This document shows positions 28,214 through 53,739 of a stretch of DNA of 64,000 bases, piece after piece. The stretch covers positions 2,542,001 through 2,606,000 of the forward strand of contig NZ_CP020737.1 of assembly GCF_002097715.1 (NCBI RefSeq), given 5' to 3'. A program made the translations under genes and the position numbers. The stretch comes from Burkholderia ubonensis subsp. mesacidophila. GTDB lineage: Bacteria > Pseudomonadota > Gammaproteobacteria > Burkholderiales > Burkholderiaceae. Positions within the stretch are counted from its first letter, which is position 1. Each line of letters opens with the position of its first letter. Under the pieces are notes generated by a model. That model saw only the letters and a list, made by a program, of their open reading frames with translations. It was not told the origin of the DNA and made no database searches.

Positions 28214-28233
28214 ACCCGCCGATGGCGGGTTTT
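28214..28233 (+). terminator. Hairpin with T-run at the response-regulator end
   Basis: A 7-bp stem (ACCCGCC / GGCGGGT) with a 3-base loop runs into TTTT on the plus strand and touches the stop codon of the minus-strand regulator. In the plus direction it is a short intrinsic terminator. In the minus direction it may attenuate read-through into the secretion operon. Confidence 0.4.
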
Positions 28234-28907
28234 CACACCCGGTCGTCGTCGCCCAGCGCGAGCACGCCGATGTCGATCGCGAAGTGGACGAGGCCGGCCA
28301 GGTTCACGATGCCGAGCTTGCGCATCAGGTTCGCGCGGTGCTTTTCCACCGTTTTCGGGCTGAGCTTCAGGCACTCGCCGACCTGCCGGCTCGTGTGTCC
28401 TTCGACGACGAGACGCAGCACCGTGCGCTCGCGGCTCGTCAGCGCATTCCACAACCGCGCCTTGTGCGCCGACTCGTCGCGCAACCCCTGCGCGCACGCG
28501 CGGGACCGGTACGCGTCGAGACTGACCACGCACTTGCCCTGCATCACGAAGCGCATCTCGCGGACCAGATCGGCGAACGACGTATCCTTGACCACGTAGG
28601 CGTCCGCGCCGGCGGCGAACGACTCCTGCACGTGGCCTTCGCTGCGATGAACGGTGAGGACGATGATGCGCGCATGCGGCGCATCGCGCTTGATCGCCGT
28701 GATCGCCTCGAAGCCGCTGCCGCCCGGCATCGACAGGTCCATCAGGACCAGGTCGGGCTGCGTGAGCGCGGCGAGGCGGCAGGCCTCGTACCCGCCGCTC
28801 GCCTCGCCCACGATGCAGTAGTCGTCCAGCTCGGAAACCATGCGGCAAAGGCCGACGCGCAACAGGTGCTGGTCCTCGACCACCAGCACGCGAGTCTTCT
28901 TGTCCAC
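28233..28907 (-). CDS. NarL/FixJ-family response regulator
   Basis: 224 residues from ATG 28907. The receiver domain has the acidic pair E11/D12, phosphoacceptor Asp57 (LVLMDLSMPG), Thr (VLTVHRS) and Lys (YVVKD). A LuxR-type helix-turn-helix closes the protein (LTSRERTVLRLVVEGHTSRQVGECLKL, SPKTVEKHRANLMRKLGI). It is 90 bp downstream of the SCO gene and probably cotranscribed with it. It resembles the second regulator at 31355-32140, so the two probably answer to the single kinase between them. Confidence 0.92.
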   Translation of the reverse strand: MDKKTRVLVVEDQHLLRVGLCRMVSELDDYCIVGEASGGYEACRLAALTQPDLVLMDLSMPGGSGFEAITAIKRDAPHARIIVLTVHRSEGHVQESFAAGADAYVVKDTSFADLVREMRFVMQGKCVVSLDAYRSRACAQGLRDESAHKARLWNALTSRERTVLRLVVEGHTSRQVGECLKLSPKTVEKHRANLMRKLGIVNLAGLVHFAIDIGVLALGDDDRV

Positions 28908-28997
28908 GTTCGTCGCTCCTTGCCGGACGCGTTGCGCGCGCCTCGCGCCCGGCCGTTCCGGCGGCCGGCGCGAGCCCGTTATCGGCGTGAACGGCCC

Positions 28998-29942
28998 CTA
29001 GTCGGAAGCGACGACGTCGCGATAGGCGGCCAGCAGTTCAGACGGCGTCGCAAAGCCGTCGATGCGCATCCATTGCTTGCCCGGCGCGGCGCGCAGGAAT
29101 GCCACCGGCGCGTGATTCATCTTGTCGCCGCGGTACACGTTGAACGCGCGCTGCGCGGCGATGCTCGCGTCGACCGAGCCGGTGTAGTGCTGCCACTCGG
29201 GGCCGGCCTCGAATCTCGCCGCATAGGCCCTGAGCCGCGCAGGCGTGTCCTCTTCCGGGTCGATCGAGATCGACACGATGTGCACCTTGTCGCGATCGCT
29301 GCCGAGCTCGCCCTGCAGCCGCTCGAGCGTCTGGCTGATCATCGGGCAGATGGTCGTGCAACTGGTGTAGATGAACGTCAGGATCACCGGCCGGCCGTCG
29401 TTCAGTTCGTCGACCAGCGACACGGTCTTGCCGTCGTCCCGCACGAGCTCCACCGGCGGCAATGCATAGTCGACCATCGAGTGCGTCGTGCCGGGGGCGA
29501 CAGCGTGATGCATATGCATGCCGGCGCCTTCCGTGGCGCTTTCCGTGGCGCCTTCGGCGGCGTTCCCGGTGGCGTTGTCGATCGCGCTCTCGGTGGCTTC
29601 GTCGGTCGCTTTCCCGTTCGCGTTCGCCGGAGCAGTCTCGGGCGCCTGTTCGACCGGCATCTCCATCTTGCTCCCGGCATCGTTCTCGGTGGCGCTCCCG
29701 GCGGCGTTCCGTGCAGCATCCTCGGCCGCGTCGTTGGTCGCATTCCCGGTCGCATTCCCGGTCGCATTCTCAGTCGCATTCCCGGCGGTGCTCGGCATCG
29801 CACTCTCGGTCGTGTTCCCGACCGCGTGCTCCATGACGCTCCCGGCGGCGTCCTCGGCAGGCGCACACCACGCGGCAGTCGCGGCAAGCGCGGCGCCTGC
29901 GAGCACGAATGCGCCCGCCGTCGATTTCGCAGTCCCTTTCAT
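28998..29942 (-). CDS. SCO1/SenC/PrrC copper chaperone with long low-complexity linker
   Basis: 314 residues from ATG 29942, with GGAGACGG upstream. A signal sequence (GAFVLAGAALAATAAW) is followed by about 120 residues of Ala/Asn/Thr/Glu/Gly repeats rich in NAT and ENAT units. A Met/His patch (MHMHHAV) and a C-terminal thioredoxin-like SCO domain follow. The copper-binding CTTICP and the distal His in NHAPVAFL are intact. SCO proteins deliver copper to oxidases or act as thiol reductases. Here the cluster context suggests metallation of the multicopper oxidases. The linker is far longer than usual for the family. Confidence 0.88.
   Translation of the reverse strand: MKGTAKSTAGAFVLAGAALAATAAWCAPAEDAAGSVMEHAVGNTTESAMPSTAGNATENATGNATGNATNDAAEDAARNAAGSATENDAGSKMEMPVEQAPETAPANANGKATDEATESAIDNATGNAAEGATESATEGAGMHMHHAVAPGTTHSMVDYALPPVELVRDDGKTVSLVDELNDGRPVILTFIYTSCTTICPMISQTLERLQGELGSDRDKVHIVSISIDPEEDTPARLRAYAARFEAGPEWQHYTGSVDASIAAQRAFNVYRGDKMNHAPVAFLRAAPGKQWMRIDGFATPSELLAAYRDVVASD
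29520..29850 (-). repeat. Degenerate 12-15-bp repeats in the SCO linker
   Basis: Plus-strand units like GCATTCCCGGTC recur many times, most regularly at about 29745-29800. They encode Gly-Asn-Ala-Thr / Glu-Asn-Ala-Thr repeats in frame. The array could expand or contract without a frameshift. Confidence 0.65.
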
Positions 29943-30049
29943 ATCCGTCTCCGTGGCGATAAGCGAGGCCGCGATGGCTTCCCGACCCCGCACGTTCAGT
30001 GTCGGGAATATGTTCGCGACGGTCATTGGATGACGCCCCCCAAAGGCCG

Positions 30050-30064
30050 GTAGGGTACGTCCGC
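30050..30064 (+). promoter_or_regulatory. Partial regulon motif between SCO and kinase genes
   Basis: GTAGGGTACGTCCGC keeps the GTAGGG half and a degenerate right half of the recurring motif. It lies in the 262-bp divergent region between the SCO gene (29942) and the kinase (30205). It is weak support for shared regulation. Confidence 0.25.
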
Positions 30065-30204
30065 TTGGTGGATTACCCGTCGTCCACAACCGGGATGCCC
30101 CCCATGCCACGCCCCCGCAATCACCCGGTTGCCGCGTGCGCCGGTCGGGGCCTAGAATGGCGGAAATCTTACGGTTTCCTGATTACGCACTATCGGGAGC
30201 TCTC

Positions 30205-31338
30205 ATGAGTGAACGCCAGCCCGAAGGGCCGCAGATCAGGCTGCTCGACCTGATCGACGCGATGCGCAAGCTCCGCGGCGCGGTCCGTCCAGGCAATCGC
30301 GGCGCCGGCATCGTCACCGATGCGCGCGGGGCAGCGCTTGCCATCCTCACGCCCGGCGGCGTCTTCGTCTCCGTGAATCGCAGCGCCGCGACGCTCCTGG
30401 GCTACTCGAACGACGATCTCGTCGGCAAGCACCTCGCCGACCTCGCACCCGACGACACCCACGCCGAATTGGCAGACGAATTGTCGACGAGCGCCCGCAG
30501 CCCGTTTCACTCGTTCGGCGCGATGCTCTGCGGGCGCACCGGGCATCCCGTGCAGCTCCTGCTGCATCAGCAGCCGCTCCCCGCCCGGAATGCGGTCGCC
30601 GGCATGCTGCTGACGCTGTTCGAGGAACCGGTTGCCTTCGAACCCAAGCAGCGCGGCACGGCCGCATCGCTCGATGCCGATGCGCGCGCTTGCCAGACCT
30701 GGCTGATGCTGGGTCAGCAAAAGGAGCGCCATCGGCTGAGCGCGGAACTGCATGACGGCATCGGCCAGGCCTTGACGCTCATCAAGCTGATGAACGAGGA
30801 CGCGCTCATGCGCCTTCGCCGCGGCGACATCGACGAGGCCGAAAGCCTGCTCGACGCCACCGTTCATCGCATCCGCGAAACGATCGGCGACGTGCGGCAG
30901 ATATGCGGGGAACTGCGGCCGCTGATGCTCGACAGGCTCGGCCTGCCCGCGGCATTGGCGTCGCTGTGCCGGCGCGTCGAGCGCGACACGGAAACGCTGT
31001 CGGTCACGTTCAATTGCGACGTCGACGACGACGACGTGCCGGAGCACCTGAAAGCGGATATGTTCCGGGTCGCGCAGGAGGCGCTCAACAACATCGTCAA
31101 GCACGCGCACGCCACCGAAATCTCGCTTGGCCTGCACCATGTCGCGGGCGGACTGCTGCTGACGATCCAGGACAACGGCATCGGCTACGAGCACCGCCCG
31201 CTGGCGACCGAAGACGCGCGCACGACCGGCCTCGGCCTGATCGGCATGCAGTACCGCGTCGAGTCGCACGGCGGCACGTTCTCGATCCGGTCGTCGGCCA
31301 CGACCGGCACGTTCGTCTCGGCGACCTGGGCGCTGTGA
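30205..31338 (+). CDS. Soluble PAS-domain sensor histidine kinase (NarX/DegS type)
   Basis: 377 residues from ATG 30205, preceded by GGGAG. There are no membrane segments. A PAS domain (about 35-145: GVFVSVNRSAATLLGYSNDDLVG) is followed by a HisKA_3 dimerisation domain with phosphoacceptor His183 in AELHDGIGQAL and an HATPase domain (RVAQEALNNIVKHAHA, TIQDNGIGY, GLGLIGMQYRVESHGG). It phosphorylates LuxR-type regulators and should sense a cytoplasmic cue. It is divergent from the SCO gene and convergent, at 16 bp, with the second response regulator. Confidence 0.92.
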   Translation: MSERQPEGPQIRLLDLIDAMRKLRGAVRPGNRGAGIVTDARGAALAILTPGGVFVSVNRSAATLLGYSNDDLVGKHLADLAPDDTHAELADELSTSARSPFHSFGAMLCGRTGHPVQLLLHQQPLPARNAVAGMLLTLFEEPVAFEPKQRGTAASLDADARACQTWLMLGQQKERHRLSAELHDGIGQALTLIKLMNEDALMRLRRGDIDEAESLLDATVHRIRETIGDVRQICGELRPLMLDRLGLPAALASLCRRVERDTETLSVTFNCDVDDDDVPEHLKADMFRVAQEALNNIVKHAHATEISLGLHHVAGGLLLTIQDNGIGYEHRPLATEDARTTGLGLIGMQYRVESHGGTFSIRSSATTGTFVSATWAL

Positions 31339-31354: not shown

Positions 31355-32140
31355 TCAGCCGTCCGCTTCGCCGAGCGGATATTCGCGCAACGACGCTCTC
31401 GCGTCCGCGCCGCCCGCCGGATCGCCGTTGCCGGCCAGGCGTGCCGGCAGGTCGTTCGCATTGGGCTCCGCGCACTTCGCCGCCAGCGACGTCAGCAGGC
31501 CCATGTTCATCGCGACAAGCACCAGTTCCGTCAGGTTCGCGATATGGAGCTTGTGCATCATGCTGGCGCGATACTTCTCGATCGTCTTCGGACTCAGGTT
31601 CAGGTACTGGCCGACCTGCCGGTTGGTGCGCCCTTCGGCGATCAGCTTCAGCACGCTGCGCTCGCGCGCGGTCAGGATGTCCCAGGCCGTCTTCGGCGCG
31701 GGCATTTCGCGGCCGGTCACGAATGAATCGACCATGTACCCGTACACGTCCGCGCTCAGGTGCTTCTTGCCCTGCATGACCGTTCGCATCGCCAGCAGCA
31801 GTTCCTCGAACGAGACGTCCTTGAGCACGTAGCCGTCGACGCCCGCGCGCAGCGCTTCGCGCACATACTCCTCGCTCTGATGCACCGTCAGCGCAACGAT
31901 CCGCACCTGCGGCGAGCGCCGCTTGATCGTTGCACTGGCATCGATGCCGTTCATCCCGCGCATCGACAGGTCGATCAGCATCAGGTCCGGGGCAAGCGCG
32001 ATCGCCTGCTGACACGCCTCCTTGCCGTCCCTCGCCTCGCCGATGACCTCGTAATCGCCTTGCGCACTCAGCATCGAGCGCAGGCCGTTTCTCAGCAGGT
32101 CATGGTCCTCTGCAATTACCACGCGACATTTGGTGTTCAC
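31355..32140 (-). CDS. NarL/FixJ-family response regulator
   Basis: 261 residues from GTG 32138-32140 (start of NTKCRVVIAEDHDLLRNG). The frame is open upstream, but the receiver fold begins here and GGAAGAC precedes it. Receiver features are E11/D12, Asp57 (LMLIDLSMRG), Thr (ALTVHQS) and Lys (YVLKD). The LuxR-type HTH (LTARERSVLKLIAEGRTNRQVGQYLNL, SPKTIEKYRASMMHKLHI) is followed by a ~45-residue tail not found in the other regulator. It likely partners the kinase at 30205. Confidence 0.92.
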   Translation of the reverse strand: MNTKCRVVIAEDHDLLRNGLRSMLSAQGDYEVIGEARDGKEACQQAIALAPDLMLIDLSMRGMNGIDASATIKRRSPQVRIVALTVHQSEEYVREALRAGVDGYVLKDVSFEELLLAMRTVMQGKKHLSADVYGYMVDSFVTGREMPAPKTAWDILTARERSVLKLIAEGRTNRQVGQYLNLSPKTIEKYRASMMHKLHIANLTELVLVAMNMGLLTSLAAKCAEPNANDLPARLAGNGDPAGGADARASLREYPLGEADG

Positions 32141-32150
32141 GTCTTCCACT

Positions 32151-32171
32151 CCCGGTAGCCCCCCTACCCGG
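32151..32171. promoter_or_regulatory. Palindrome with GTAGGGGGG core before response regulator
   Basis: Inverted arms CCGGTAG and CTACCCGG flank a C-run. The minus strand reads GTAGGGGGG, the exact nine bases found twice at 53874-53898. It lies 11-31 bp upstream of the regulator's start, where binding would block transcription or translation. It suggests autoregulation. Confidence 0.4.
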
Positions 32172-32629
32172 ACACTGCGGAATGCTCGGTATGGCGATGT
32201 CATGTCCGCAGTGCCGGCACCGTCCGCTGGGCATCTTTCCCAGTCCTCACTTCCCGACTCGATTGCGCCGACAACCGACTGCCATACCGCTCGGATGAGC
32301 AAGGTTCGCGCCACGGCACGGCCGGCCGGCATGAGCCGGACCATGCGCCCGGCGCCGCCGGCCGGAAACAGCCGGGCGTCCTCAAGGATGTTTCAGGATT
32401 GAATCGAATGGATTTTTTTTGCCGCGTCAGTGCGACTACGGATAGCGGAATTACCGCTCATTTCTCGCGGCGAGTGGAAATAATTGAATCGCGACAACGT
32501 CGAACCCGAAAAATACCTTGTGGTGCGTCGCAAGAATTGTAATCGGCGTTGAGCAACTTCCATTACCGTCGATTACCGATGTAACAATCTTGCACCATCC
32601 GTCTCAGCCGACGGCGCATGCGTCGAAGT

Positions 32630-32646
32630 GTAGGGAGGTGCCCCAT
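32630..32646 (+). promoter_or_regulatory. Regulon-motif copy upstream of transglycosylase
   Basis: GTAGGGAGGTGCCCCAT matches the copy at 53866-53882 (minus strand) at 15 of 17 positions. It ends 51 bp before the transglycosylase start. Confidence 0.5.
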
Positions 32647-32697
32647 TGTCGATCCGATTTTTCCTCCACCACAATTCAAGTGCAGGAGATTCGGAAG

Positions 32698-33330
32698 ATG
32701 CACCGACGCCCTTCATTCCGCTTGGGAAACGCAATCGTCGCCGCATGCGTGGGGCTCGGCTGCGCGTGGTCATGCGGCGTGCGTGCGGAAATATTCGGTG
32801 CGGTCACGAGCAACGGCGTCATCGTGTTGACGAACCAGCCCGGCAAGGCCGGCCTGAAGGTGATCGTCGCGGGCCCGCCAGGCGCCGACCCGGGCATGAA
32901 GCGCGTGTCGTCGAAACCGGCCGATGGCGTCGTGCTGCCGCGGTTCGCGGACGTGATCGACGAGGCGAGCCACGCGTTTCGCGTTCGCCCCGAACTCCTG
33001 CGCGCGGTGATCGACGTCGAGTCGGGATACAACCCGAAGGCGGTGTCGGACAAAGGCGCGCTCGGCCTCATGCAATTGATGCCCGACACCGCGCGACGCT
33101 TTTCGCGCGGAGACATGCTCAATCCGCGCGACAACGTGCTGGCCGGCGCGCAATACCTGCGCTTCCTGCTCGACCTGTTCAACGAGAACGTGGAGCTCAC
33201 GCTGGCCGCATACCACGCCGGAGAAAACGCAGTGATACGCGCCGGCTATCGCATTCCGTCGTTTCCGACGACGCGCGTTTACGTCCCGCGCGTGCTCGCG
33301 CGTTACAAGCAGCTGCTCGCCACGAACTAG
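32698..33330 (+). CDS. Lytic transglycosylase (SLT family) with DUF4124-like N-terminus
   Basis: 210 residues from ATG 32698. A signal peptide ends near CGVRA, followed by a short DUF4124-like segment (EIFGAVTSNGVIVLTNQPGK). The SLT/goose-lysozyme-like domain then begins, with catalytic Glu108 in DVESGYNPKAV. GALGLMQLMPDTA, AGAQYLRFLLDLF and AAYHAGENAV are standard SLT motifs. It cleaves peptidoglycan in the periplasm. Such enzymes often open the wall for secretion or pilus machines, and it carries the same upstream motif as the secretion operon. Confidence 0.9.
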   Translation: MHRRPSFRLGNAIVAACVGLGCAWSCGVRAEIFGAVTSNGVIVLTNQPGKAGLKVIVAGPPGADPGMKRVSSKPADGVVLPRFADVIDEASHAFRVRPELLRAVIDVESGYNPKAVSDKGALGLMQLMPDTARRFSRGDMLNPRDNVLAGAQYLRFLLDLFNENVELTLAAYHAGENAVIRAGYRIPSFPTTRVYVPRVLARYKQLLATN

Positions 33331-33453: not shown

Positions 33454-33963
33454 TCATGGAAACGCCGGAATCGCCGGGTCCTCGCCTTCGAGGTGCGCCT
33501 CCGCGTGGTGGAGCTTGATCATGTCTTCGATTTCATGCACGCGGTCCTTCGCGACGTCGATCATCATCAGCAGCTCGCCGCGGTCGATCCCTTCCTCGAA
33601 CCGCTTCAGGCGCGTATTCGGCACGTCGACGCCGATCATCGACGCCGCCCACGCGCCGAAGCCGGCGCCGGACAGCGTGATCGTCACCACGGCGCCGCCG
33701 GCGATCGGCAGGCCCGCCGGCGGAAACATCAACGCGAGCAGCGCCATCACCATCCCGGTCGCACAACCGACGGCCGTGCCGCGCGCCAGCGACGGCAGCA
33801 GATCGCTGCGCTGCGCGAGCGTCGCCGCCGGCAAACCGTCGAGCACGGTGTTGTGGTTCGCGATGACATGGATGTGCCGCCACTCGACCCGCTCCAGCAG
33901 GAGCTCGTTCACGATCAGATGCGCGCACTGCGGCGTCGGCAACAGAAAATAGATGCGTCTCAT
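33454..33963 (-). CDS. DUF1269-like membrane protein
   Basis: 169 residues from ATG 33963, preceded by GGGGGAGGAG. RRIYFLLPTPQCAHLIVNEL and VEWRHIHVIANHN are typical of the DUF1269 family. A two-part hydrophobic, Gly-rich segment (TAVGCATGMVMALLALMFPPAGLPIAGGAVVTITLSGAGFGA region, about 65-110) suggests a membrane hairpin. The C-terminal ~50 residues are charged and helical. The molecular role is unknown. It is the last gene on the minus strand of the cytochrome/oxidase group, 138 bp after ccsB. Confidence 0.75.
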   Translation of the reverse strand: MRRIYFLLPTPQCAHLIVNELLLERVEWRHIHVIANHNTVLDGLPAATLAQRSDLLPSLARGTAVGCATGMVMALLALMFPPAGLPIAGGAVVTITLSGAGFGAWAASMIGVDVPNTRLKRFEEGIDRGELLMMIDVAKDRVHEIEDMIKLHHAEAHLEGEDPAIPAFP

Positions 33964-34101: not shown

Positions 34102-35316
34102 TCAAAGCTTGCCGTAGCTGTGCAGCCCGGACAGGAACATGTTGACGCCGAGGAACGCGAACGTCGTGACGAGCAGGCCCGTCAGCGCCCACCAGGCGGC
34201 GGCCGTGCCGCGCAGGCCCTTCATCAGGCGCATGTGCAGCCACGCCGCGTAGTTCAGCCACACGATCAGCGCCCAGGTCTCCTTCGGATCCCAGCTCCAG
34301 TAGCCGCCCCACGCCTCGGCTGCCCACAGCGCACCGAGGATCGTCGCGATCGTGAAGAACGCGAAGCCGACCGCGATCGACTTGTACATCACGTCGTCGA
34401 GCACCTCGAGCGCCGGCAGGCGGTCGGCGAGCACGCCGCGCTCCTTCATCAGGTACGCGACCGACACCATCGCCGACAGCGCGAAGCTGCCGTAGCCGAT
34501 GAAGTTCGCCGGCACGTGGATCTTCATCCACCAGCTCTGCAGCGCGGGCACGAGCGGCTGGATCTGCTGCGCGTCGCGCGCGATCGAGTACCACATCAGG
34601 AAGCCGACCGCCGCGCTGATGACCAGCAGCACGAACGCGCCCAGCGCGCGCGTGCCGTAGTGACCTTCGTAGTACAGGTAGAGCAGCGCGGTGATCAGGC
34701 TGAACAGCACGAACACTTCATACAGGTTCGACACCGGAATATGGCCGACGTCGGCGCCGATCAGGTACGACTCGTACCAGCGCACCATCATCCCGGTGAA
34801 GCCCATCAGCACCGCGACCCAGGTGAGCTTCTGGCCGATCGCGGCGGCCGACGCCGAGCGCGCGAGCGTGCCGATCCAGTAGAACACCGTCGCGAGCACG
34901 AACAGCGCGCTCATCCACAGGATCGCCGACTGGCTCGACAGGAAGTACTTGAGGAAGAACGCCGCATCCGCGCGCGCCAGGTCGCCCTGGTAGATCTGGA
35001 TCGACAGCAGCGCGAGCACCGCGATCGACGCCATCAGCAGCCGGGCCGGCTTCCAGCGCCAGCCGAGCGTGACGAGCGCCGGGACGGCGCCGATCAGCAC
35101 GGCCTTGTCGTAGCCGTTCATGAACGCGTCGTAGCGCGTCAGCGCGAAGCCCGCGCCTGCCAGCACCGCGAGCGCAAACAGCCAGTCGACAGCGTCGAGA
35201 CGCAGCAGGAACGGGCGCGCGTCGTTCGGCGCAAACAGCGGTTCGGCAGCCCGTCGCCGCTGCCGCGACTTGCGGGCCAGCGCTGCGCCGCCACGAACGG
35301 ATTGCGTGATCTTCAT
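34102..35316 (-). CDS. ccsB: Cytochrome c assembly protein CcsB/ResC family
   Basis: 404 residues from ATG 35316; GTG 35325 is an in-frame alternative. About eight membrane segments are present. The tryptophan-rich WWD signature WGGYWSWDPKETWALIVW lies near residue 330, and conserved histidines sit in VGHIPVSNLYE and MKIHVPANFIGYG. In system II cytochrome c maturation CcsB works with CcsA/ResB to attach haem outside the membrane. No ResB partner is seen next to it. It follows the diheme cytochrome gene by 81 bp and probably matures the cytochromes of this cluster. Confidence 0.88.
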   Translation of the reverse strand: MKITQSVRGGAALARKSRQRRRAAEPLFAPNDARPFLLRLDAVDWLFALAVLAGAGFALTRYDAFMNGYDKAVLIGAVPALVTLGWRWKPARLLMASIAVLALLSIQIYQGDLARADAAFFLKYFLSSQSAILWMSALFVLATVFYWIGTLARSASAAAIGQKLTWVAVLMGFTGMMVRWYESYLIGADVGHIPVSNLYEVFVLFSLITALLYLYYEGHYGTRALGAFVLLVISAAVGFLMWYSIARDAQQIQPLVPALQSWWMKIHVPANFIGYGSFALSAMVSVAYLMKERGVLADRLPALEVLDDVMYKSIAVGFAFFTIATILGALWAAEAWGGYWSWDPKETWALIVWLNYAAWLHMRLMKGLRGTAAAWWALTGLLVTTFAFLGVNMFLSGLHSYGKL

Positions 35317-35397: not shown

Positions 35398-36069
35398 TTA
35401 ACGATCGGCGGTCGGGCTCGCCGACGCCTCGGCCTCCGGCGGAAACGCCTCGACGAACGCCGCCACAGCGCGCATGTCCTGCTCCGACATGTTTGAGCAC
35501 ACGTCCTTCATGACGGCGCCTCGCGGCCGGGTGTCGGTTTCGCGGAAGATCCTGAGCTGCTTCACCACGTAATCCGCATGCTGGCCGGCGAGACGGGGAA
35601 ACCGGCTGACGCCCTCGCCATGCTGGCCATGACAGCCGATGCATGCCGCGACGCCCTTGTCCGGCAGGCCCGCCTCGAAGATCGCCTTGCCCGCGTTGAT
35701 CAGCGCGAGATCTTCGGCGTCGCCCAGCGTCGCGCTCTGGCTCGAGAAATACGTCGCGAGCTCGTCGATCTGCGCGTCGGTCAGGTGCGTGAAGCCCCAC
35801 ATGTACCGCTTCGCATTCGCGTCTGCCCGGGCGTGAAGCTTGAAGTCCGTCAGCTGGTCGACGAGGTATTCCTTGCGCTGCCCGGCGAGCTTCGGGAACA
35901 TCGGCGACACCGACACGCCGGTTGCCCCGTGGCAGTTCGAGCACACCTGCAGCGCGATGGTCTTGCCGGCCACGGCCGGGTTGTCGACTTGTCGCGAGCG
36001 CTCCAGGTCGTGGCACGCCGACCCGGCCAGCAGCATCGCAAGCGACACGATATGGGCCACCTTGTTCAT
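35398..36069 (-). CDS. Diheme c4-type cytochrome, likely lipoprotein
   Basis: 223 residues from ATG 36069. The short signal has a lipobox-like LAGSAC. Two c-type domains carry haem motifs CSNCH (43-47) and CIGCH (143-147), each followed by a PKLAGQ or PRLAGQ segment and a possible axial Met (RYMWGF; AVMKDV). This arrangement is the c4 family of periplasmic electron carriers. It lies between the Cyc2-like gene and ccsB, so it could carry electrons between an outer-membrane conduit and inner-membrane oxidases. Confidence 0.88.
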   Translation of the reverse strand: MNKVAHIVSLAMLLAGSACHDLERSRQVDNPAVAGKTIALQVCSNCHGATGVSVSPMFPKLAGQRKEYLVDQLTDFKLHARADANAKRYMWGFTHLTDAQIDELATYFSSQSATLGDAEDLALINAGKAIFEAGLPDKGVAACIGCHGQHGEGVSRFPRLAGQHADYVVKQLRIFRETDTRPRGAVMKDVCSNMSEQDMRAVAAFVEAFPPEAEASASPTADR

Positions 36070-40297: not shown

Positions 40298-40325
40298 GGC
40301 CATCCCCCCTCGTCCGGATGCCCGG

Positions 40326-41207: not shown

Positions 41208-41711
41208 CTACTCGACCACCAGCCCGTCGATATGGAGCGAATCGATCAGGATGCTGACCCGCTCTCCGCGCTTGATCGGCTCGCCCTTGTTGGAAAACAC
41301 CATCCAGTATTCCTGACCAGCCTCCAGCTGACCGGTCTGCCGCAGTGCGCCGATCTGGTCCATCACCGGAATCACGAGCAGCGCGTGGCTGGCTTGCCCG
41401 TACAGATAGGCGGGCGCCTTCGTATCGGCGAGCGGTCGCGCCATCAGCGGATCGGTCACGCGATAGCTGAAGCGAATCAGGTTGCCCGACGCGGTGCTGC
41501 GCACGTGCAGGTCGTCGATGCCTTTCGCCAGCTGGTAATAGGCCTTCGCGTGTCGCGGCAGGCTCACGGGCCGGTACGGCGAGCGAGCCGGCGCAGCCTG
41601 CGCGGCCTGCGCGGCCGGCCCGGCCGCGGCCGGCTGAGGCCGGACCGCGGCGAGGCAGGCGCCGCCCGCGAGCAACAGCGCGGATGCCGTGCGGAGCGTC
41701 GATCGTTTCAT
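41208..41711 (-). CDS. Small secreted protein of the oxidase operon
   Basis: 167 residues from ATG 41711, overlapping the stop of the giant gene (ATGA), so translation is probably coupled. A signal peptide (LRTASALLLAGGACLAAV) is followed by an Ala-rich stretch and a beta-rich domain (RPVSLPRHAKAYYQLAKGID, NLIRFSYRVTDPLMARPLAD, SHALLVIPVMDQIGALRQTG). I do not recognise a family. The tight coupling suggests a partner or chaperone of the 2,901-residue protein. Confidence 0.75.
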   Translation of the reverse strand: MKRSTLRTASALLLAGGACLAAVRPQPAAAGPAAQAAQAAPARSPYRPVSLPRHAKAYYQLAKGIDDLHVRSTASGNLIRFSYRVTDPLMARPLADTKAPAYLYGQASHALLVIPVMDQIGALRQTGQLEAGQEYWMVFSNKGEPIKRGERVSILIDSLHIDGLVVE

Positions 41712-47700: not shown

Positions 47701-50413
47701 CCGTGCCGAAGCCGTCCGTTCCGCCACTGACATCCACTTCGCCGTTGAGCGGCGCGTCGTCCTCGAACACGAACACCGAGAGCTTCGCGGTCGGATACGG
47801 CGTTTCCGTCAGCAGCACGTTGAGTTGCCCCGCTTGTCCGGCCGCGGTCTGCCCTGCCTGCGCGGCAGCGATTTGCGCGGGCGCGATCGGCGCGCCGCCC
47901 ATGCTGTGCCCGCACTTGCCGGTGCCCGGCGCAAAATCCGCGCCGCTCGGGCCGGACGGGCAGTCCTGCGCGATGCTGAACTGCCTTACGCCGTTGTACG
48001 GAACACCGCCGCCGTTCGAGAACGTGTTGCCGGCGTCGCCGGGCAGGATCGAGATGTAGTAATGCTTGGTCGGATCGAGCGCCACGTACTTCGGATCGAC
48101 CGCCGTCTGCTGCGTGACGTTCGCGCCGGTACGGCACACGCCGTTGCCGACGTCGCACACGGTCGGCAGGTGCGTGTTGGACACCGGGTCATACACGGTC
48201 TGTCCGGATTCGCACGCCACCGTGCCGACACAGCCCGACGCGACCACCGGCATGTAGCTCGTATGGAAGTTCGTGCCGAGGCTCGGCACCGGCAGCGGCG
48301 GACAGTTCGCCGGCCGCGACGTCGCCGAGTTCACCTGGCAGGCCGGATCGATCTGCATCGTGCGGTCTTCCTCGATGATCCAGCGATAGTCGGTGAGTTG
48401 AACCATCCTGTTGGGCGCCTTCGCGTCCGGCGCCATGCTCGGCGCATCCATCACGTTCACGACGAGCCCGCTGCCGGGATTGAAGGTCACGGTCACGGTG
48501 CCGGTGGTCGTGCTCGTCTGCTTTTGCGTATTGGTGACGTTGTACTGGAACGTCACCGTCTGCGCGGACGCGTTGCTGCCGGCAAGCGGCGGGGTCGTCG
48601 GCGTCGCGGTAAACGATCCGTCCGGGTTCAGCGTGACGGCGCCGTTCTGGGCTGCCCCGACGAGTTGCGCCGTGAGCGGCAGCCCGGCCGGGTCGCTCGC
48701 GCTGGCGAGCACGCCGGGCGCGCCGACCTGCACGCGCGACGCGATGTTGCTCGTGAAGCTGGCGTTGCCCGCCGTGGGCGTCGACAGGCAACCATTGCCC
48801 GCGGTGCAGGCGGTCAAGGTGACCTGCGCCGTCACCGGCGGCGTGCCGTTCGTCGACTGATAGACGAAGCTGTCGTTCGCCGAGCCGCTCGACAGATAGG
48901 TGAACGTGCCGTCCGTGTTCAGCGTCAGCGTGCCGCTGGCCGGCGCCGTCTGCACCTTCACGCCGTAGACGCCGGTGGTGTTCGCGATCACGCCCTTGGC
49001 CGGGTCCGACACGGTCAGGGTCGTGCCCGGCACGAAGTAGTAGTTCGCACCCGCGGCGCTCGGCGTTTCGCCAATGCCCGCGGTCGCCGACGGCTGCGCG
49101 TTGTTGACCGCGATGTAGCCTTGCATCCCGCCGTCGCGCTGGTTGTTGGTCGACAGGCTCAGCTCGCGGTCGTACACGGGCAATGCCCCCGCGGCCGGTG
49201 CATTCACCATCACGTCGTAGGTCTTGCCGGCAGCCATGAACACGGAGTTCTGGATGCGCGCGCTGCCGGGCAGCACGTTGCCGTCCTCGGCGACGAGCGA
49301 GAACCCGGGAACGGACGGATTGCCCGTTTGCGCGCCGACCACGGCGGGAATGTGCATGCGCAGGCCGGCATTCACGAAGCGCACGAGCACCTGCCCGGTC
49401 GACGCCGGCACGTTCGCGCTCGGCGCAAATGCCGACGTGTTCGGGTTCGTGCGGTCGAAGGCGACGCCGTTGATCAGGTAATAGCGCGGATCGTAGTTCA
49501 CCACCGGCGGATAGCAGGTGCCGAACGATACGGACTTCGAATCGCCGCATCCGCCCGGCTGACCGGACCATGCGGCGGTTTCGCTGAAGCCCTTGGTCGC
49601 GACGGCCGCGGCGACCGCCGCGTTCTGCACCGGATCGATCTCGCCCATCACGAGCGGCACGTCGGCGTCATAGCAGGTCGCCGTACCCGGATAGGCCTGG
49701 TTCGTCGATGCGCAGGTCGAGCTGGGCACGCTCGGGCTCTTCACGACCAGCACGCCGTAGAGGCCCATCGGCCCCTGGATCGACGGGTGCGTGCCCGATT
49801 CGAGCAGATAGGTGCCCGGCTTGAGGTTCGCCCAGGTGAGCGTCGTGTACGCCTTCGGATCGATCGTCGGCGCCACCTCGGTGCCGAACGATTCGATGCG
49901 CGGCCCTTGCGCGGGCGGCGTAAATGCCGCGGGCGGCGCGGAGTACGGCGTCGGGGGGGCCGTCGTGGACGAAACGATCGGCCAGGTCGTCGCGGTCTGC
50001 GTCGGATGCACCGGACCCGGCTTGGTCGTCGGTGCGTTCCCCAGCCCGCCGCCCAATTGCCCGACGATGACGAGCGAAGTCGGCACCGGGGCCGGCAAGT
50101 TGTTCGTCAGGTTGATCTGCAGCTGCCCCGCCGGCACGGTGATCACCACCGGCGACCAGTTCGCGCCGGCGGCCGGATTCGTGGCCGCACAGGTGGCGTT
50201 CGCGGCCGGCACCGTCGCATTGGCGGCCGGCGTGCAGGTGTAGCCCCACATCGGCACGGACTGTCCGTCCGGCAACACCGCCGTGGAGGCCTTCGCCGTC
50301 AGATTGACGACCGCCTGCGCGAAGCATGCCTCGCCGGCCGTCAGCAACATGGATGCCGCGACCCCCGCCTTGAACAGACCAAGGAGCGTCGCTGTGAGCT
50401 TGGTGGATCTCAT
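41708..50413 (-). CDS. Giant secreted modular protein: cupredoxin/SdrD-B/TIG/beta-helix
   Basis: 2,901 residues from ATG 50413 (MRSTKLTATLL; GTG 50428 is 15 bases upstream). In order: a signal peptide (~1-34); multicopper-oxidase-like cupredoxin regions (~35-450, GPMGLYGVLVV); Ig-like repeats (~470-660); cupredoxin-like segment (DPTKHYYISILPGDAG); SdrD-B/CNA-B-like modules (~950-1700, RTFIDLHGDGISHPDDPGIA); an IPT/TIG-like domain (~1870-1925); a right-handed beta-helix (~1985-2700, AGDMIVVGPGTYNE); and a Pro/Gln/Arg-rich tail. No HxH copper motif is present anywhere. It resembles MofA/MnxG-type large oxidases of Mn(II)-oxidising bacteria but appears to lack copper sites, so it may be a cell-surface scaffold. 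Confidence 0.8.
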   Translation of the reverse strand: MRSTKLTATLLGLFKAGVAASMLLTAGEACFAQAVVNLTAKASTAVLPDGQSVPMWGYTCTPAANATVPAANATCAATNPAAGANWSPVVITVPAGQLQINLTNNLPAPVPTSLVIVGQLGGGLGNAPTTKPGPVHPTQTATTWPIVSSTTAPPTPYSAPPAAFTPPAQGPRIESFGTEVAPTIDPKAYTTLTWANLKPGTYLLESGTHPSIQGPMGLYGVLVVKSPSVPSSTCASTNQAYPGTATCYDADVPLVMGEIDPVQNAAVAAAVATKGFSETAAWSGQPGGCGDSKSVSFGTCYPPVVNYDPRYYLINGVAFDRTNPNTSAFAPSANVPASTGQVLVRFVNAGLRMHIPAVVGAQTGNPSVPGFSLVAEDGNVLPGSARIQNSVFMAAGKTYDVMVNAPAAGALPVYDRELSLSTNNQRDGGMQGYIAVNNAQPSATAGIGETPSAAGANYYFVPGTTLTVSDPAKGVIANTTGVYGVKVQTAPASGTLTLNTDGTFTYLSSGSANDSFVYQSTNGTPPVTAQVTLTACTAGNGCLSTPTAGNASFTSNIASRVQVGAPGVLASASDPAGLPLTAQLVGAAQNGAVTLNPDGSFTATPTTPPLAGSNASAQTVTFQYNVTNTQKQTSTTTGTVTVTFNPGSGLVVNVMDAPSMAPDAKAPNRMVQLTDYRWIIEEDRTMQIDPACQVNSATSRPANCPPLPVPSLGTNFHTSYMPVVASGCVGTVACESGQTVYDPVSNTHLPTVCDVGNGVCRTGANVTQQTAVDPKYVALDPTKHYYISILPGDAGNTFSNGGGVPYNGVRQFSIAQDCPSGPSGADFAPGTGKCGHSMGGAPIAPAQIAAAQAGQTAAGQAGQLNVLLTETPYPTAKLSVFVFEDDAPLNGEVDVSGGTDGFGTAREPGLGGFEIKLWDDAGGTGDPTGQMTYDMFNMPLSNSLQGTVDPLTGLNACPITTATDGLVGMIPTCPKYESDGKTLSPLVGQAVIANLMPGRYGVVATPAADRIGRGEEWLQTNTLDGQKAHDAFIKVGGPAYFQEFGPAGYHVAVGFANPKIINARRTNASKTGLCDTGACLNSIKGHVTNLHYSRPPNENLYGSGTRDSLAFTQCYVSVGDPDGEDYGFTKCDSKGNFEIDGLPSGTTRITVFDQWNDQIVDGLAKAVQLPDANGNAMVDVGEISVLQWQTNLYTRTFIDLHGDGISHPDDPGIALASVNMRFRDGSYSSFNATDGNGYAPFNEVFPLFNWYVVDDDQTRYKATGTHVVYDAGGPVDGTGAPGSGNSTIAKNFANTAETVPVPSSLQVPGAKYCADADCASTGSGSTGRVDPPWVTSEAWQGFSGQNSFIEYGKTPFAKGENGGIRGEVIYASTRPFDDPTLLIHTKWTPNVPNVTVNLYQEGTAADGTTNLTLVDTTKTTSWDDWAQGFRADGVTPNMNCPGQNTSDPFYFTLQNSTNWLDPQHRQLPANAQFKCYDGMHVFNQIQPAPYDGAYKFPSVSATDSTGKPVASNCTICVGKNPVDGTPMLPAGKYVVEIIVPPGYELVKEEDKNILIGDNYIAPVTQQFGGIGNIYIIPDQAAVNSSYNKNNAQNPTTNLGSTPHAEGDTGSVERFWPCVGELRIVPDYMSIFPGSKEVAPFAGASRHLCDRKEVQLTDEESVLAKFWIFSSTHVAAHYTGFMLDDFSSEFDPYSPQFGEKFAVPNVPISFKDYSGNEISRTYSDQWGIYNGLTFSTWEVNPPNPTGYAPTMMVTCMNDPGPIPDPNNPGKTMTDPLYNPAYSQFCYEIPFMPGQTQYMDTPVVPVQAFADGYNQPDCAYPDATPAISSVTGDAIGAGAGPWVSAPGNQLTINALGDQQVPNNAYTGPSQTTAPFNQKFITRHYGFGNTQGSGSVTIAGVNAPVVSWGDQQIVVTVPDLSIAIPPLTTGSSTCTIQQMGAPATQCGELVITAGNGKRSIDTVTVTIGGKAPTYINGENGASNAIQSAIDNASAGDMIVVGPGTYNEMLVMWKPVRLQGVGAASVKVNANTHPSGKLDPWRRLVSCLFGTSLDGGLITSTYDPTKPVSPTNNPYDPSGTYQCPAQMQGHTDPIPFEPTVGWDGTLNGNLGELLMEPSLLGAYEGAGITVLAKGVQPSTNCTANGVCTLLTATDCTTDPNNPNYSNFLCNPSRIDGLTFTNSSQGGGGIFLHGWNHYTEVSNNRVTGNAGTLTGGITIGQVEVPDGTIASDGVTQLPFMYNTYVNVHHNAVTANASYGDEINSTTPSSAGGVTFCSGADYYRFNYNWVCGNISSGDGGGVAHFGFSYNGDLSHNVVLFNQSNNPTLPTYGGGMIAQGVPPDGTFCENSLVDVDCAPQLSDGVGPGLVIDGNLIMGNTAESGKGGGLRLQNVNGTDVQRSLDDPDNWYQVSVINNIIADNVAGWSGGGVSLQDAVRVNFINNTVIANDATASAGVLFNTPAAAQSNVLPPGCTTSPNSSETTCTGYIGTSTLQPAGLETATHSQNLMTAFTPPAGFTGTVTCPDGETNCMNFSNPVLTNNLFWQNRAFYISVSAQPDPTIPGVQNAVTLNPVLSQKTGGTGFCDTQGMTTNGQASPPVYWDIGAYGDTGPTNPQAAMKMNPQYSIMTDTTGYDASNMAANPQTVSQYCNGSRVPPEAGGNGFAVPPGIADAVLPNPLFGLLPSATPDEGNQWINMSYGPLSLFNAALTSGQAGYNTMMGNYSITSGSPAIGAATGDGAPNHDIFGTPRPSANGFDIGAVEYVDPGLLGGLLGGGGAPIDPLALGSQQPNLASLFPLGLGRIARLLGGGVPRPQVFAPALRRLRAGVQRQAPAPRQPQAGALTQRPALARPQSNVLLQAPAATPTPAPAPARNRAQPQPQPQARTQPRPPAPAAATPKPKPLTRAAQ

Positions 50414-50430: not shown

Positions 50431-52089
50431 CTAATTGGATTCGTCGATCGGAAATACCGGGGGATCGACGAGCATCATCATCATCATTCCGCCTGGGAAG
50501 ATGTTGTTCGTCGTGATCTCGCGCTCGTTATGCGAGTGCCACATGAATGCGAAACCTGCTTCCGTCGCCGGCGGGTTCAGGATCGTGCCGCTGGGCGGCG
50601 TCGTTCCCGTCGGAGACGTCGCCCGCGTGGTCGCATCCGGGCCGAGATACGGACTGCCGCCATACCAGAAGCCGTTCGTCAGCACGTGCGAGTCCGGCAG
50701 CGTGACCGGCCCGCCGCTGCCGACCTTGCCGAACGGCGCGTTCTCGAGCGCCTTGCCGTGGTCCTGGCACCACTCGTAGTAGTTCGGCGCGTCACGCGGG
50801 GCCGGCGGGTTCGAGGCCGTCGTGTAGTAGCCGTTCGCGTCCGGGATGCAGACGCTGCCGTCGCCCGCGTAATGGGCGTAGACGTCCCAGTTCAGGCCCT
50901 TGCCGGTCCAGTAGAAGATCCCGTCCATCGTGAGGCCCGGCGTCGTGGTCGTCGTGAACAGCAGCGGGCCGGCCGGTTGCAGGGGCGCCGCCGGATTGGC
51001 CGGGTCGACCTGGCTCAGCAGCAGGTTGCCGTCGCGCGCGAGCACGCGCACGTGATTGCCGTGCTCGTGGAACGGATGCTGCCAGCGGCCCGTGCCGATG
51101 ATCCGCAGCAGCACCAGCTCGCCCGGATGCATGTGCGGGTTGCCGTTGTATGGCTGGTGCGGATACTGCGGCGCGTAGTTCGGATCCATGTCGTCCGGCA
51201 TCGAGCGGCCGTTGACCATGAAATACGCCGGGTGATAAGGCTCGGTCTCGACGGTCATGCAGCCGTTCGGCTTCGTGCACGTGGTGTTCGCCGCGACCTG
51301 CTGTTCCGCCTGCTGATGGATCTTCGGATCCATTTCGGAGAACTGAAACAGGTACTCGCGATCGTAGCAGGCCGCGCTGTTGTCGAAGGCCGCCGGCGCG
51401 TTGCGGAAATCATGCTGGCCGAAGGGCCTGCCGGCATCCGGGAACGCCATGCAGCCCGCGGTGTTGGCCGACGTGTTCGGCAGCACGATGATCGCGCCGT
51501 ACAGCCCCATCTCCACCTGCAGGTCGCCCTGCGTGCCGCTGTAGTACGTGTGCGTGCCCGGCGTCGCCGCGACGAACGTGTAGGTGACCGTCCCGCCGTG
51601 CGGCGCCTCCTGCGCCAGCATCCCCGGCACGCCGTTGCCGGCCGCCGCGCCGCTGCAGGTCTTGCCGTCCGGGCTCAGCGTCCCCGTGCACACGTTGAAC
51701 CCCGGAAACAGGATCGACGTGTTGCCGGCCGCCACGGGCAGGTTGTTGGTGAGCGTCACGGTGATGATGTCGCCCTGCCTGACGATCAGCGTCGGGCCGG
51801 GGATCTGCATCGTCGGACAGGTCGCGCCGGCGATCGTCGACGGCGAGAAGACCGGCGGCGTCGCGCTGTTCGCCGCGCAGCCGTAGCCCCACGAATAGAC
51901 GCTCGAGCCGTCGGGCTGCGTGATGCGCGCCTCCTCGGCGCTCAGGTTGAAGACCTTGCCGGTGATGCCCGGCGCGGCGGCTTGCGCGTGCATCGACAGC
52001 AGCGCGGCGAGCGTCGTGACGACGACGCGCGCGAGCCGTCCAAGGTGCGCGAGCGTCGCGGTCCACGCGCGGTGAGTGATGTGTCCCAC
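50431..52089 (-). CDS. Multicopper-oxidase-like protein with HPxHxH and HSH motifs
   Basis: 552 residues from GTG 52087-52089, with GAGGAG upstream. A signal peptide ends near SMHAQA. Domain 1 has lost its copper histidines (GTHTYYSGTQGDLQVEMGLYG, where oxidases have WYHSH). Later domains keep HPFHEHGNH (338-346) and WHSHNERE...GGMM (from 517), the latter with Ser in place of the type 1 Cys. It therefore carries half of a trinuclear-cluster ligand set and no obvious type 1 site. It sits 17 bp before the giant gene and 66 bp after the other oxidase-like gene. Confidence 0.87.
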   Translation of the reverse strand: MGHITHRAWTATLAHLGRLARVVVTTLAALLSMHAQAAAPGITGKVFNLSAEEARITQPDGSSVYSWGYGCAANSATPPVFSPSTIAGATCPTMQIPGPTLIVRQGDIITVTLTNNLPVAAGNTSILFPGFNVCTGTLSPDGKTCSGAAAGNGVPGMLAQEAPHGGTVTYTFVAATPGTHTYYSGTQGDLQVEMGLYGAIIVLPNTSANTAGCMAFPDAGRPFGQHDFRNAPAAFDNSAACYDREYLFQFSEMDPKIHQQAEQQVAANTTCTKPNGCMTVETEPYHPAYFMVNGRSMPDDMDPNYAPQYPHQPYNGNPHMHPGELVLLRIIGTGRWQHPFHEHGNHVRVLARDGNLLLSQVDPANPAAPLQPAGPLLFTTTTTPGLTMDGIFYWTGKGLNWDVYAHYAGDGSVCIPDANGYYTTASNPPAPRDAPNYYEWCQDHGKALENAPFGKVGSGGPVTLPDSHVLTNGFWYGGSPYLGPDATTRATSPTGTTPPSGTILNPPATEAGFAFMWHSHNEREITTNNIFPGGMMMMMLVDPPVFPIDESN

Positions 52090-52155
52090 GGTCGTTCTCC
52101 TCAGTGCAGGAGTTCCCGGTCGGGCCCGCCCGATGCAGCAGGCGGGCCTTGGCCC

Positions 52156-53739
52156 TCAAAGAGTGCAATGCTTCGTGATCGGATCCACCGCGCTGCAGAT
52201 GTGAACCTCGGTCATCAGGCCGCCGAAGTTTTCCTGATCGTTCGACAGGTGATCGAGGTTCGGCGTGTACAGGTAGAAAATCTGGCCCGAGTGGTATTTC
52301 GTCTTGTCGCTGGCGTCGAGGATCAGGTCGAGCGACTCGCCGCCCGCGAGCGTGATCGAGTTCGTGTCGTAGGCCAGGTTGTTGCCGGCCATGTCGCGCA
52401 ACATGCGGGCGTTGATCGCGATCACGTGCATCGGGATGCCGAGCGACGCCAGCGTCTGGTATTCGGTGACGTCGAGATCCGAGATCCGCAACAGCGCCCT
52501 GCCGCCGGCCGGGATGTTGATCAGCGTCGGCAGCGGTTGCGACGGATGCATCGCAGCATCCGACGACGGCGTCGACATCGCCCCCTCGGTCACCGTGTCC
52601 GGATAGCTGCGGCCGTTCAACAGGAAGAACTTGTCCTTCATGTCGGTGAACGGCTCCGGATTGAACGTCATGCCGACGAAGTGGAAGTTCGGATCGAAAC
52701 CGTGAATCTGGATCGGGTACTCGACGTCGTATGCGGTCGAGCCGTCGCCGTCGTTGTACGCGTACAGCGACAGCGTCGCCGGCGCGGTCTGCGGAATGTT
52801 GGGATTAGCCGCGCGCACGAGCCCGGTGTTCTGCTTCGGCAGCGGCGTCGAGCAGAGAATGTCGTTGCCGCAGCGCGTGCGCAGGTCGGACTGCTGGGTG
52901 ACCAGCGCTTCGTACAGCGACACGCCCGCGGGCACCCGGTCCTGGCGCGGCCGCACGTAGATCTGGCCGACCATGCCCATCTGGAGGTGCTCCGGCGGCG
53001 TGATGTGGCAGTGCCAGAAATAGGTGCCCGCATCCGGCGCGAGGTAGTAGTACGTGAAGCTCGCGCCGATGTTGATCGCGACCGACGCATCCGGCACGCC
53101 GTCATAGAACGACGACGCGTTCGGGTAGCCGTGGAAGTGCACCGTGTGCTTTTCGAACAGGTCGGGACGCATGATCATCCCGACGTTCGTGAGCGTGAGG
53201 AAGAACTCGTCGTCTTCGTCGATCGCCATCAGCGGCGCCGGCTCGTTGCCGTTCATCACGCCGATGTCCATGATCGGGCGCGGGTCGACGTGACCGGTCA
53301 GCGCGCCGCCCGCATCCGGATCGGGCGCGAGGCCGACCGCGCCGTTGTAGGTCGGGTCCGTCCGCGGGTCGCCGACGGTGTTGAACACCGACGCGAGCTG
53401 CGTGCCGGGCAGGCCGGCCTTGATGTCCGCCAGGCCGGACAGCGGACCGAACGCGAACAGGTAGGTCTGCACGCCGTTGGCCATCGTCGCGTAACCGTCG
53501 CCGCCCGAGATCTGCTGGCACTTGATCGCGCCGTTTACGGTGCCGGTCGATGCGGAGTTCTGTCCCGTGTAGGCCGGCCCGGTATAGGCCGGCTCGCCCG
53601 CGCCGAGCGCCAGCGCGGTCGGATGCGACGGCGTGGTGAACGGGCATTGGACACGGAACGACTGCGCGAACGACGGAGCGGCGAACAGCAGGAGCAACAG
53701 TGCCGCCACACTGCTGCAGTACGTGCGGGTGTTGAACAT
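52156..53739 (-). CDS. Multicopper-oxidase-like protein with HFHG and HCH motifs
   Basis: 527 residues from ATG 53739, with a strong GGAGGT site. A signal peptide ends near APSFAQ. One cupredoxin domain has HFHG (201-204) and FWHCHITPPEHLQMGM (241-256), holding two histidine pairs plus a type 1-like Cys244, His251 and Met. A second domain (MHVIAINARML, YTPNLDHLSNDQENFGGLM) looks degenerate. It is the first gene of the operon and bears the ligands its neighbour at 50431 lacks. It should be exported to the periplasm or surface. Confidence 0.88.
   Translation of the reverse strand: MFNTRTYCSSVAALLLLLFAAPSFAQSFRVQCPFTTPSHPTALALGAGEPAYTGPAYTGQNSASTGTVNGAIKCQQISGGDGYATMANGVQTYLFAFGPLSGLADIKAGLPGTQLASVFNTVGDPRTDPTYNGAVGLAPDPDAGGALTGHVDPRPIMDIGVMNGNEPAPLMAIDEDDEFFLTLTNVGMIMRPDLFEKHTVHFHGYPNASSFYDGVPDASVAINIGASFTYYYLAPDAGTYFWHCHITPPEHLQMGMVGQIYVRPRQDRVPAGVSLYEALVTQQSDLRTRCGNDILCSTPLPKQNTGLVRAANPNIPQTAPATLSLYAYNDGDGSTAYDVEYPIQIHGFDPNFHFVGMTFNPEPFTDMKDKFFLLNGRSYPDTVTEGAMSTPSSDAAMHPSQPLPTLINIPAGGRALLRISDLDVTEYQTLASLGIPMHVIAINARMLRDMAGNNLAYDTNSITLAGGESLDLILDASDKTKYHSGQIFYLYTPNLDHLSNDQENFGGLMTEVHICSAVDPITKHCTL

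Follow-up and report, generated by a model that had tools for sequence, protein, structure and literature searches.

The window analysed here is a 64,000-nucleotide stretch of Burkholderia ubonensis DNA (G000:C1:2542001-2606000, within a 7.84-Mb genome). Its minus strand carries a run of ten genes from 53739 down to 33454. The first two encode proteins resembling multicopper oxidases (MCOs), here called MCO1 and MCO2, and the next a giant surface-type protein; these three genes, the trio, are our main subject. Two LolA-like proteins, a MofC-like protein, a Cyc2-like protein, a diheme cytochrome, CcsB and a small protein complete the run. A transglycosylase, two response regulators, a histidine kinase and SCO lie beyond it.

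An earlier, sequence-only reading took 28233..53739 to be a putative extracellular metal-oxidation and electron-transfer island that included two MCO-like proteins. Its gene content holds, but the pair of LolA-like proteins (39461-41144) and another response regulator (28233-28907) must be added. The conserved unit also does not stop at 28233: an atypical type II secretion system (T2SS, 18722-28118) belongs to it, giving an island of 18722-53739. The starts had also been described as coupled. The gaps along the ten-gene run are 66, 17, 563, 28, -4, 155, 156, 81 and 138 bp: some are tight (-4, 17 and 28 bp), but others reach 563 bp, and the transglycosylase and the kinase are on the opposite strand. 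The trio itself is as follows.

52156..53739, minus strand: MCO1, two-domain cupredoxin protein, 527 amino acids, with signal peptide (Pfam and ligand alignment)
50431..52089, minus strand: MCO2 (P0002), two-domain cupredoxin protein, 552 amino acids (Pfam and ligand alignment)
41708..50413, minus strand: putative third subunit, a ligand-free two-domain cupredoxin N-terminus followed by a giant surface-type protein, 2901 amino acids

Copper ligands, paralogy and conservation of the trio

Both MCO1 and MCO2 carry Pfam MCO domains (Cu-oxidase_3/_2). Where are their copper ligands? We compared 80 loci, kept from 198 relatives in a genome scan with P0002 and 36 homologues as queries. MCO1 residue numbers follow P0001 and are 45 higher than those counted from the start of the 52156..53739 frame. 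Ligand counts omit chains shorter than 480 amino acids, which affects three of the 80 MCO1 loci (L078, L088 and L099, the last with its MCO1 frame split into two pieces) and five of the 80 third chains.

The N-terminal domain of MCO1 has the motifs HxxHxH and HCHx5HxxM. They supply the type 1 (T1) copper ligands H243, C289, H296 and the Met, together with one half of a trinuclear site, H246, H248, H288 and H290. All seven numbered residues are invariant (78/78 sequences). HCHx5HxxM is found in 80 of 80 MCO1 loci, and the two MCO1 lacking HxxHxH (L078 and L088) are short open frames. The C-terminal domain of MCO1 has no HxH in the stretch aligned to HPFHEH of MCO2; the sole histidine there, H483, is kept in 44 of 78.

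MCO2 is built the other way round. At the HCH position of its N-domain it has SGT, invariant across 81 sequences (SGTQ in the window protein), and HCH occurs in none of the 80 MCO2. Its C-domain keeps HPFHEH and WHSH. Here H341, H343, H518 and H520 form the other trinuclear half (81/81), and the T1 cysteine is replaced by serine. The third chain keeps neither half-site: 75 of the 80 chains tested for HxH are at least 480 amino acids long, and HxH occurs within the first 640 residues in three of the 80, in two of them in the C-domain.

The eight trinuclear histidines are thus four from the MCO1 N-domain and four from the MCO2 C-domain, all invariant, and no chain with both half-sites was found among MCO1 or MCO2 of the 80 loci. 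Judged from these alignments, the trio would jointly supply exactly one T1 site and one eight-histidine trinuclear site at a predicted MCO1-MCO2 contact: the MCO1 N-domain half and the MCO2 C-domain half complete a type C site, something that no other pairing within the trio can do. Since neither chain has a complete site, the earlier count of two MCOs, right as to domains, is probably wrong as a count of enzymes.

Two further features of these chains were seen. An HMH pair in MCO2, H319/H321, precedes the copper domain in 81 of 81 main-clade sequences and was not seen there in five divergent sets described below; it is a possible extra metal site. MCO1 has an N-terminal extension before its first cupredoxin domain (about P0001 residues 71-195) in which C77, H84 and C119 are kept in 78 of 78.

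The three proteins are paralogues of one two-domain cupredoxin. We compared the six trio domains pairwise with hhalign in both directions. Among the alignments of this analysis, A1 comprised P0002 with 36 of the 120 homologues listed, and A2-A4 comprised 34, 37 and 37 of 39 loci picked from the 80. N-domains matched N-domains at 91/74% (MCO1-MCO2) and 98.6/98.7% (MCO2-third). C-domains matched C-domains at 95/93% (MCO1-MCO2), 96/92% (MCO2-third) and 78/91% (MCO1-third). Cross pairs of N- with C-domains reached 35% at most. Whole-chain profiles gave 99.6% for MCO2-third and 97% for MCO1-MCO2.

The MCO1 N-domain also matches that of 3g5w (E 2.8e-14), with the same HCHx5HxxM spacing, and the MCO2 N-domain matches 3g5w and 2zwn strongly. 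We take both structures to be type C two-domain MCOs. The C-domain of MCO2 scores over the Cu-oxidase_2 cut-off (27 versus 20.4 bits). The trio are separate open frames in the 80 loci, and none of 243 proteins matching trio profiles held two different units at more than 150 bits each, although length limits make this search for natural fusions a weak test.

The trio is conserved as a unit. Every one of the 80 loci combines MCO1 and MCO2 with the third gene or at least part of it, which argues that the island is not a chance assembly. Hosts include Burkholderia, Paraburkholderia, Trinickia, Cupriavidus, Collimonas, Pandoraea, other Pseudomonadota and many Acidobacteriota. By MCO2, the closest named loci are those of B. 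ubonensis and Trinickia terrae (92%) and of B. catarinensis and B. cepacia (91%); another genome of the same genus has 96%. Judged by open-frame starts, gene order is regular in 79 of 80, the exception being L070, where the MCO2 frame is open upstream of the MCO1 frame.

A class-level sample of 274 genomes, the window's own included, gave the same picture. Called at E<=1e-30, MCO1 and MCO2 occur in the same seven genomes, adjacent and in equal numbers of sets, one genome having three sets and another two (Fisher test 4.7e-14, with kinship ignored and the window's own genome among the seven). All nine sets of the other six genomes have HxxHxH and HCHx5HxxM in MCO1 and HxxHxH and WHSH in MCO2. 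A third cupredoxin gene lies directly downstream in each and lacks HxH in eight of nine, L124 having one. Five of the nine sets are divergent (44-59% identity), and the MCO1 and MCO2 patterns still hold.

Profile searches bear out the giant protein: Big_9/Cadherin domains score over cut-off and SdrD_B under it, and a choice-of-anchor Q match is present. In the five divergent sets the third gene encodes a short cupredoxin protein, of 637 amino acids in L123 and 603 in L127, and shorter still in L126, L128 and L129, whose sequence stretches are short. Three of these five sets (L123, L126 and L127) have, upstream of MCO1, a separate frame related to the C-terminal part of the giant protein. The third subunit therefore also occurs on its own, and in the window it looks as if it had been fused to the rod.

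Linked cytochromes, regulators and secretion genes

The remaining genes of the island are listed below.

40326..41144, minus strand: LolA-like exported protein 1 (Pfam)
39461..40297, minus strand: LolA-like exported protein 2 (Pfam match under the gathering score)
37767..39464, minus strand: MofC-like protein, cytochrome c domain and long C-terminal part that is binding-protein-like by description only
36226..37611, minus strand: Cyc2-like fused cytochrome-porin candidate, 461 amino acids (AxPxFARQT, single CxxCH and PxL)
35398..36069, minus strand: diheme c4-type cytochrome (Pfam/NCBIfam)
34102..35316, minus strand: CcsB-type cytochrome c biogenesis protein (TIGR03144, 247 bits versus a cut-off of 188)
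33454..33963, minus strand: small conserved protein without Pfam match
32518..33330, plus strand: SLT lytic transglycosylase (Pfam/NCBIfam)
31355..32203, minus strand: NarL/LuxR-type response regulator 1 (Pfam/NCBIfam)
30136..31338, plus strand: PAS-HisKA_3 histidine kinase (Pfam/NCBIfam)
28998..29942, minus strand: SCO1/SenC copper chaperone (Pfam/NCBIfam)
28233..28907, minus strand: NarL/LuxR-type response regulator 2, RR2 (Pfam/NCBIfam)
18722..28118, minus strand: atypical T2SS, comprising the GspG pseudopilin, F, E, three proteins without family match, secretin and two further pseudopilins

Pfam and NCBIfam profiles confirm what had been read from the sequence for the diheme c-type cytochrome, CcsB, SCO1/SenC, the SLT transglycosylase and a two-component system of HisKA_3 kinase and NarL/LuxR-type regulators. 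The proposed fusion of a cytochrome with a binding protein fares less evenly. Its cytochrome half is PF00034, but its other half has no Pfam match at 1e-3, and that half's sole PDB match at E<=1 is a cytochrome (E 0.9). Its label therefore rests on likeness to published MofC-like proteins.

Is the Cyc2-like protein a Cyc2? Fused cytochrome-porins of this kind are recognized by AxPxFAR[Q/K][T/Y], one CxxCH, PxL and a length of at least 365 amino acids (PMC8406198). The window protein shows each of these features, although its motif-to-CxxCH spacing is off by a residue or two from the wording of that source; a barrel and Fe(II) oxidation are putative. It has no Pfam, NCBIfam or PDB sequence match, and we treat the porin-cytochrome seen by the earlier reading as a candidate that carries the published motif. 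Among the 120 Cyc2-like homologues listed, 106 have the motif and 117 a single CxxCH.

Within the genus the gene is tied closely to the trio. In a sample of 65 genomes, with MCO2 as the sole marker for the trio, MCO2 was found in 16. The same 16 have a Cyc2-like orthologue (identity 83% or higher; Fisher test 1.5e-12, kinship ignored), 12.3-13.0 kb from MCO2 in each. Three further genomes have a distant Cyc2-like protein (47-48%) without MCO2. A combination of copper oxidase and Cyc2-like modules that had been thought unusual is thus the rule among Burkholderia with MCO2.

Outside the genus the link is loose. We searched 30 trio genomes drawn from the 80 loci and found a Cyc2-like match in 23, two of them weak (G080 and G089). 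The seven without a match are three Acidobacteriota, two Paraburkholderia, one betaproteobacterial metagenome-assembled genome and one other proteobacterial one; the five Acidobacteriota searched gave three with none and two with weak matches only. We therefore rejected the Cyc2-like gene as a core part of the trio system. As a companion of the copper trio, the cytochrome branch is specific to certain lineages, and within the genus it is tightly kept.

Twelve larger stretches from 11 genomes show how far the wider order is kept. Eight of them, from Burkholderia, Paraburkholderia and Trinickia terrae, match the window's arrangement between the LolA-like pair and CcsB over whatever part they cover. 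Five of the eight continue via RR2 into the T2SS; of the rest of the 12, three end short of that place. Pandoraea and Trinickia symbiotica have many of the same genes in a different order. One gammaproteobacterial metagenome-assembled genome has the LolA-like pair and a distant Cyc2-like gene (232 bits) on one side; its MofC-like and SCO genes lie on the opposite side.

Of the T2SS proteins, GspG scores over its equivalog cut-off (178 versus 89 bits) and the others under theirs: E 458 versus 630, F 245 versus 424 and D, the secretin, 179 versus 351 bits. Three other GspG-type genes score over cut-off elsewhere in the genome, so the island T2SS looks like an extra system. Several lineages have T2SS genes next to the island or the trio. 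Flanks of up to 10 kb around the 80 loci have a run from E to two pseudopilins directly upstream of the trio in seven (L044, L053, L055, L057, L089, L091 and L105), and the Acidobacteriota loci inspected gave secretin-like matches only. With these counts, and with T2SS genes after RR2 in five of the 12 larger stretches, the T2SS is not shown to be a universal partner of the trio.

A second atypical T2SS lies at G000:C1:1663200-1673300 (L131/L132), its GspG-, F-, E-, pilin2- and pilin3-like genes arranged as in the island system. It adjoins a protein with the mature start HGYLSEPPSR, presumably a chitin-type lytic polysaccharide monooxygenase. In the window, genes of DUF475/TerC and TelA type (toxic-anion resistance) stand directly upstream of the island at 54120-58736, and relatives also stand upstream of the trio in B. 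ubonensis L031. Past the T2SS is PelG (PF16933, 16019-17389); a Pel-like exopolysaccharide locus may adjoin the island.

A putative oxidase shared among three proteins

The trio has published relatives. In Sideroxydans lithotrophicus ES-1, three genes for extracellular MCOs lie in tandem, alongside a mofC-like gene and one for a copper chaperone (He 2017, PMC5566968). The products of Slit_1812-1818 are more abundant on magnetite than on Fe(II)-citrate, canonical MCO motifs are ascribed to two of the three cupredoxin proteins, and similar clusters have been noted in Paraburkholderia, Ralstonia, Anaeromyxobacter and Steroidobacteraceae (Keffer 2025, PMC12016527). Matched by description, the two clusters share three tandem extracellular cupredoxins, of which two have MCO motifs and the third, larger and adhesin- or polysaccharide-lyase-like, has none, and also a MofC-like cytochrome and SCO. 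Unlike in that account, Cyc2-like, c4, CcsB and LolA-like proteins, regulators and a T2SS are also linked here. Because the ES-1 cluster is already published, the trio and its possible iron-mineral role are not new. The main-text passages on Slit_1812-1818, supplements including Fig. S4 aside, do not mention complementary half-sites. Against the literature passages covered, these half-sites, the paralogy of the three proteins and the exact Cyc2-like tie within the genus are new.

How do the half-sites compare with known enzymes? Two-domain MCOs are trimers whose trinuclear coppers are bound by residues of two protomers, and type C enzymes have T1 in the N-domain (PMC13151041). The trinuclear site has eight histidines, four per domain (PMC3600357). 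The trio resembles type C enzymes (3g5w, 2zwn) in its N-domain T1, its HCHx5HxxM spacing and its C-domain HxxHxH and HxH. In type C enzymes, however, every chain has both halves, whereas here the halves lie in two gene products and the third is silent. Lacking a chain with both, the trio is a variant of type C rather than a plain member. Six-domain MCOs (ceruloplasmin, MnxG, P. putida PputGB1_2447) descend from a triplicated two-domain ancestor and have at most one trinuclear site; the bacterial ones are single chains with T1 in domain 2 and the trinuclear cluster between domains 2 and 3 (PMC3600357). Six cupredoxin domains and at most one trinuclear site are common to them and the trio, but the trio has three chains and its T1 in an N-terminal domain. 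In the literature searched, with PMC8517187 and PMC10673308 (found under the words heteromeric and heterotrimer) left aside, we found no MCO whose cluster is assembled between two proteins.

We think it probable that a single MCO is made up of three subunits that have diverged from one another: MCO1, MCO2 and the N-terminal part of the giant protein. The complex would be heteromeric and probably heterotrimeric. A type C-like two-domain MCO would have been triplicated and two of its three sites lost, leaving one T1 in the MCO1 N-domain and one trinuclear cluster formed solely between the MCO1 N- and MCO2 C-domains. The ligand-free third subunit would close the ring, and its adhesin-like rod would display the enzyme on the surface. 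Export may proceed by Sec and then probably by the neighbouring T2SS; SCO may help to load copper. Set beside the island by description only, the extracellular copper oxidase OmpB of Geobacter requires a particular T2SS, Pul/OxpG (PMC3543383). The T1 of MCO1 would take electrons from an extracellular reductant and the shared cluster would reduce O2. Fe(II) itself or a mineral containing it is the likeliest reductant, given the Cyc2-like partner and the proteome of ES-1; Mn(II) or phenolics are possible. In Burkholderia-type genomes the Cyc2-like, MofC-like and c4 cytochromes with CcsB would form a linked branch into the periplasm.

Might MCO1 and MCO2 instead act separately, MCO1 as a T1 electron-transfer protein or nitrite-reductase-like homotrimer and MCO2 as a copper-binding or structural protein? 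The PDB matches of MCO1 include copper nitrite reductases, and further histidines invariant in the main clade (MCO1 H84, H398 and H542; MCO2 H319 and H321) could bind other metals. Yet H246 and H290, which complete the trinuclear HxH pairs of MCO1, are kept in 78 of 78, exactly the opposite half is kept in 81 of 81 MCO2, and the two genes co-occur one to one in the class sample; separate action seems rather unlikely to us. Also unlikely is a laccase-type oxidase at the surface that acts on phenolics, humics or lignin, with the cytochromes as an independent neighbour. It would suit the many soil Burkholderiales and Acidobacteriota among the hosts, a two-domain MCO that has been studied on lignin (PMC13151041) and a Cyc2-like gene that is not universal; it does not suit the presence of that gene in 16 of 16 genus members with MCO2 or the response of the ES-1 cluster to magnetite (PMC12016527).

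Of the sequence-only reading, an extracellular redox island that combines copper-oxidase with Cyc2-like modules and has secretion genes beside it is supported; the likeness to MofA, MnxG and McoA is not. By description, three two-domain chains with an N-domain T1 are set against a single six-domain chain (PMC3600357), and the ES-1 proteins are stated to be non-homologous to MofA/MnxG (PMC5566968). Mn(II) oxidation after the manner of those enzymes would share with published Mn/Fe clusters a large extracellular copper protein, a MofC-like cytochrome and SCO (PMC5566968), and regulators and a T2SS are present. Nothing found favours Mn(II) over Fe(II), minerals or organics, and we regard this role as improbable.

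Several observations weigh against a single enzyme of three subunits. The MCO1-third N-domain pair is the only like pair without significance, and the third-MCO2 C-domain match covers part of that domain only. HxxHxH of the MCO2 C-domain aligns with 3g5w and 2zwn, but the individual matches are weak (11.0, 5.4 and -2.5 bits). One third chain from a close relative (L124) and two others (L068 and L101) have an HxH in the C-domain. AlphaFold models of MCO1 and MCO2, made of single chains, are poor (mean predicted local distance difference test scores 55.4 and 53.7), worst in the ligand-bearing domains of both, and give no confident structural view of the complex. Oxidase activity is a prediction from sequence. 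As to the substrate and the electron route, the iron reading leans on one proteome study of a relative matched by description only, and many other trio genomes lack the Cyc2-like gene or have it away from the trio.

On balance we give roughly even chances to a fuller reading, in which the trio is a present-day, unfused counterpart of the postulated six-domain MCO ancestor: an obligate heterotrimer with one T1, one split trinuclear site and a dead third subunit on a surface rod, wired in Burkholderia to a Cyc2-like cytochrome for extracellular metal or mineral oxidation. If so, this would be an MCO whose catalytic cluster is necessarily built between two different proteins, a stage toward ceruloplasmin-type enzymes. 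It would explain why an iron oxidiser encodes a trio of copper proteins jointly, and it predicts that neither 'canonical MCO' would work alone. It would also offer a directly testable candidate system for mineral oxidation, found in both Pseudomonadota and Acidobacteriota.

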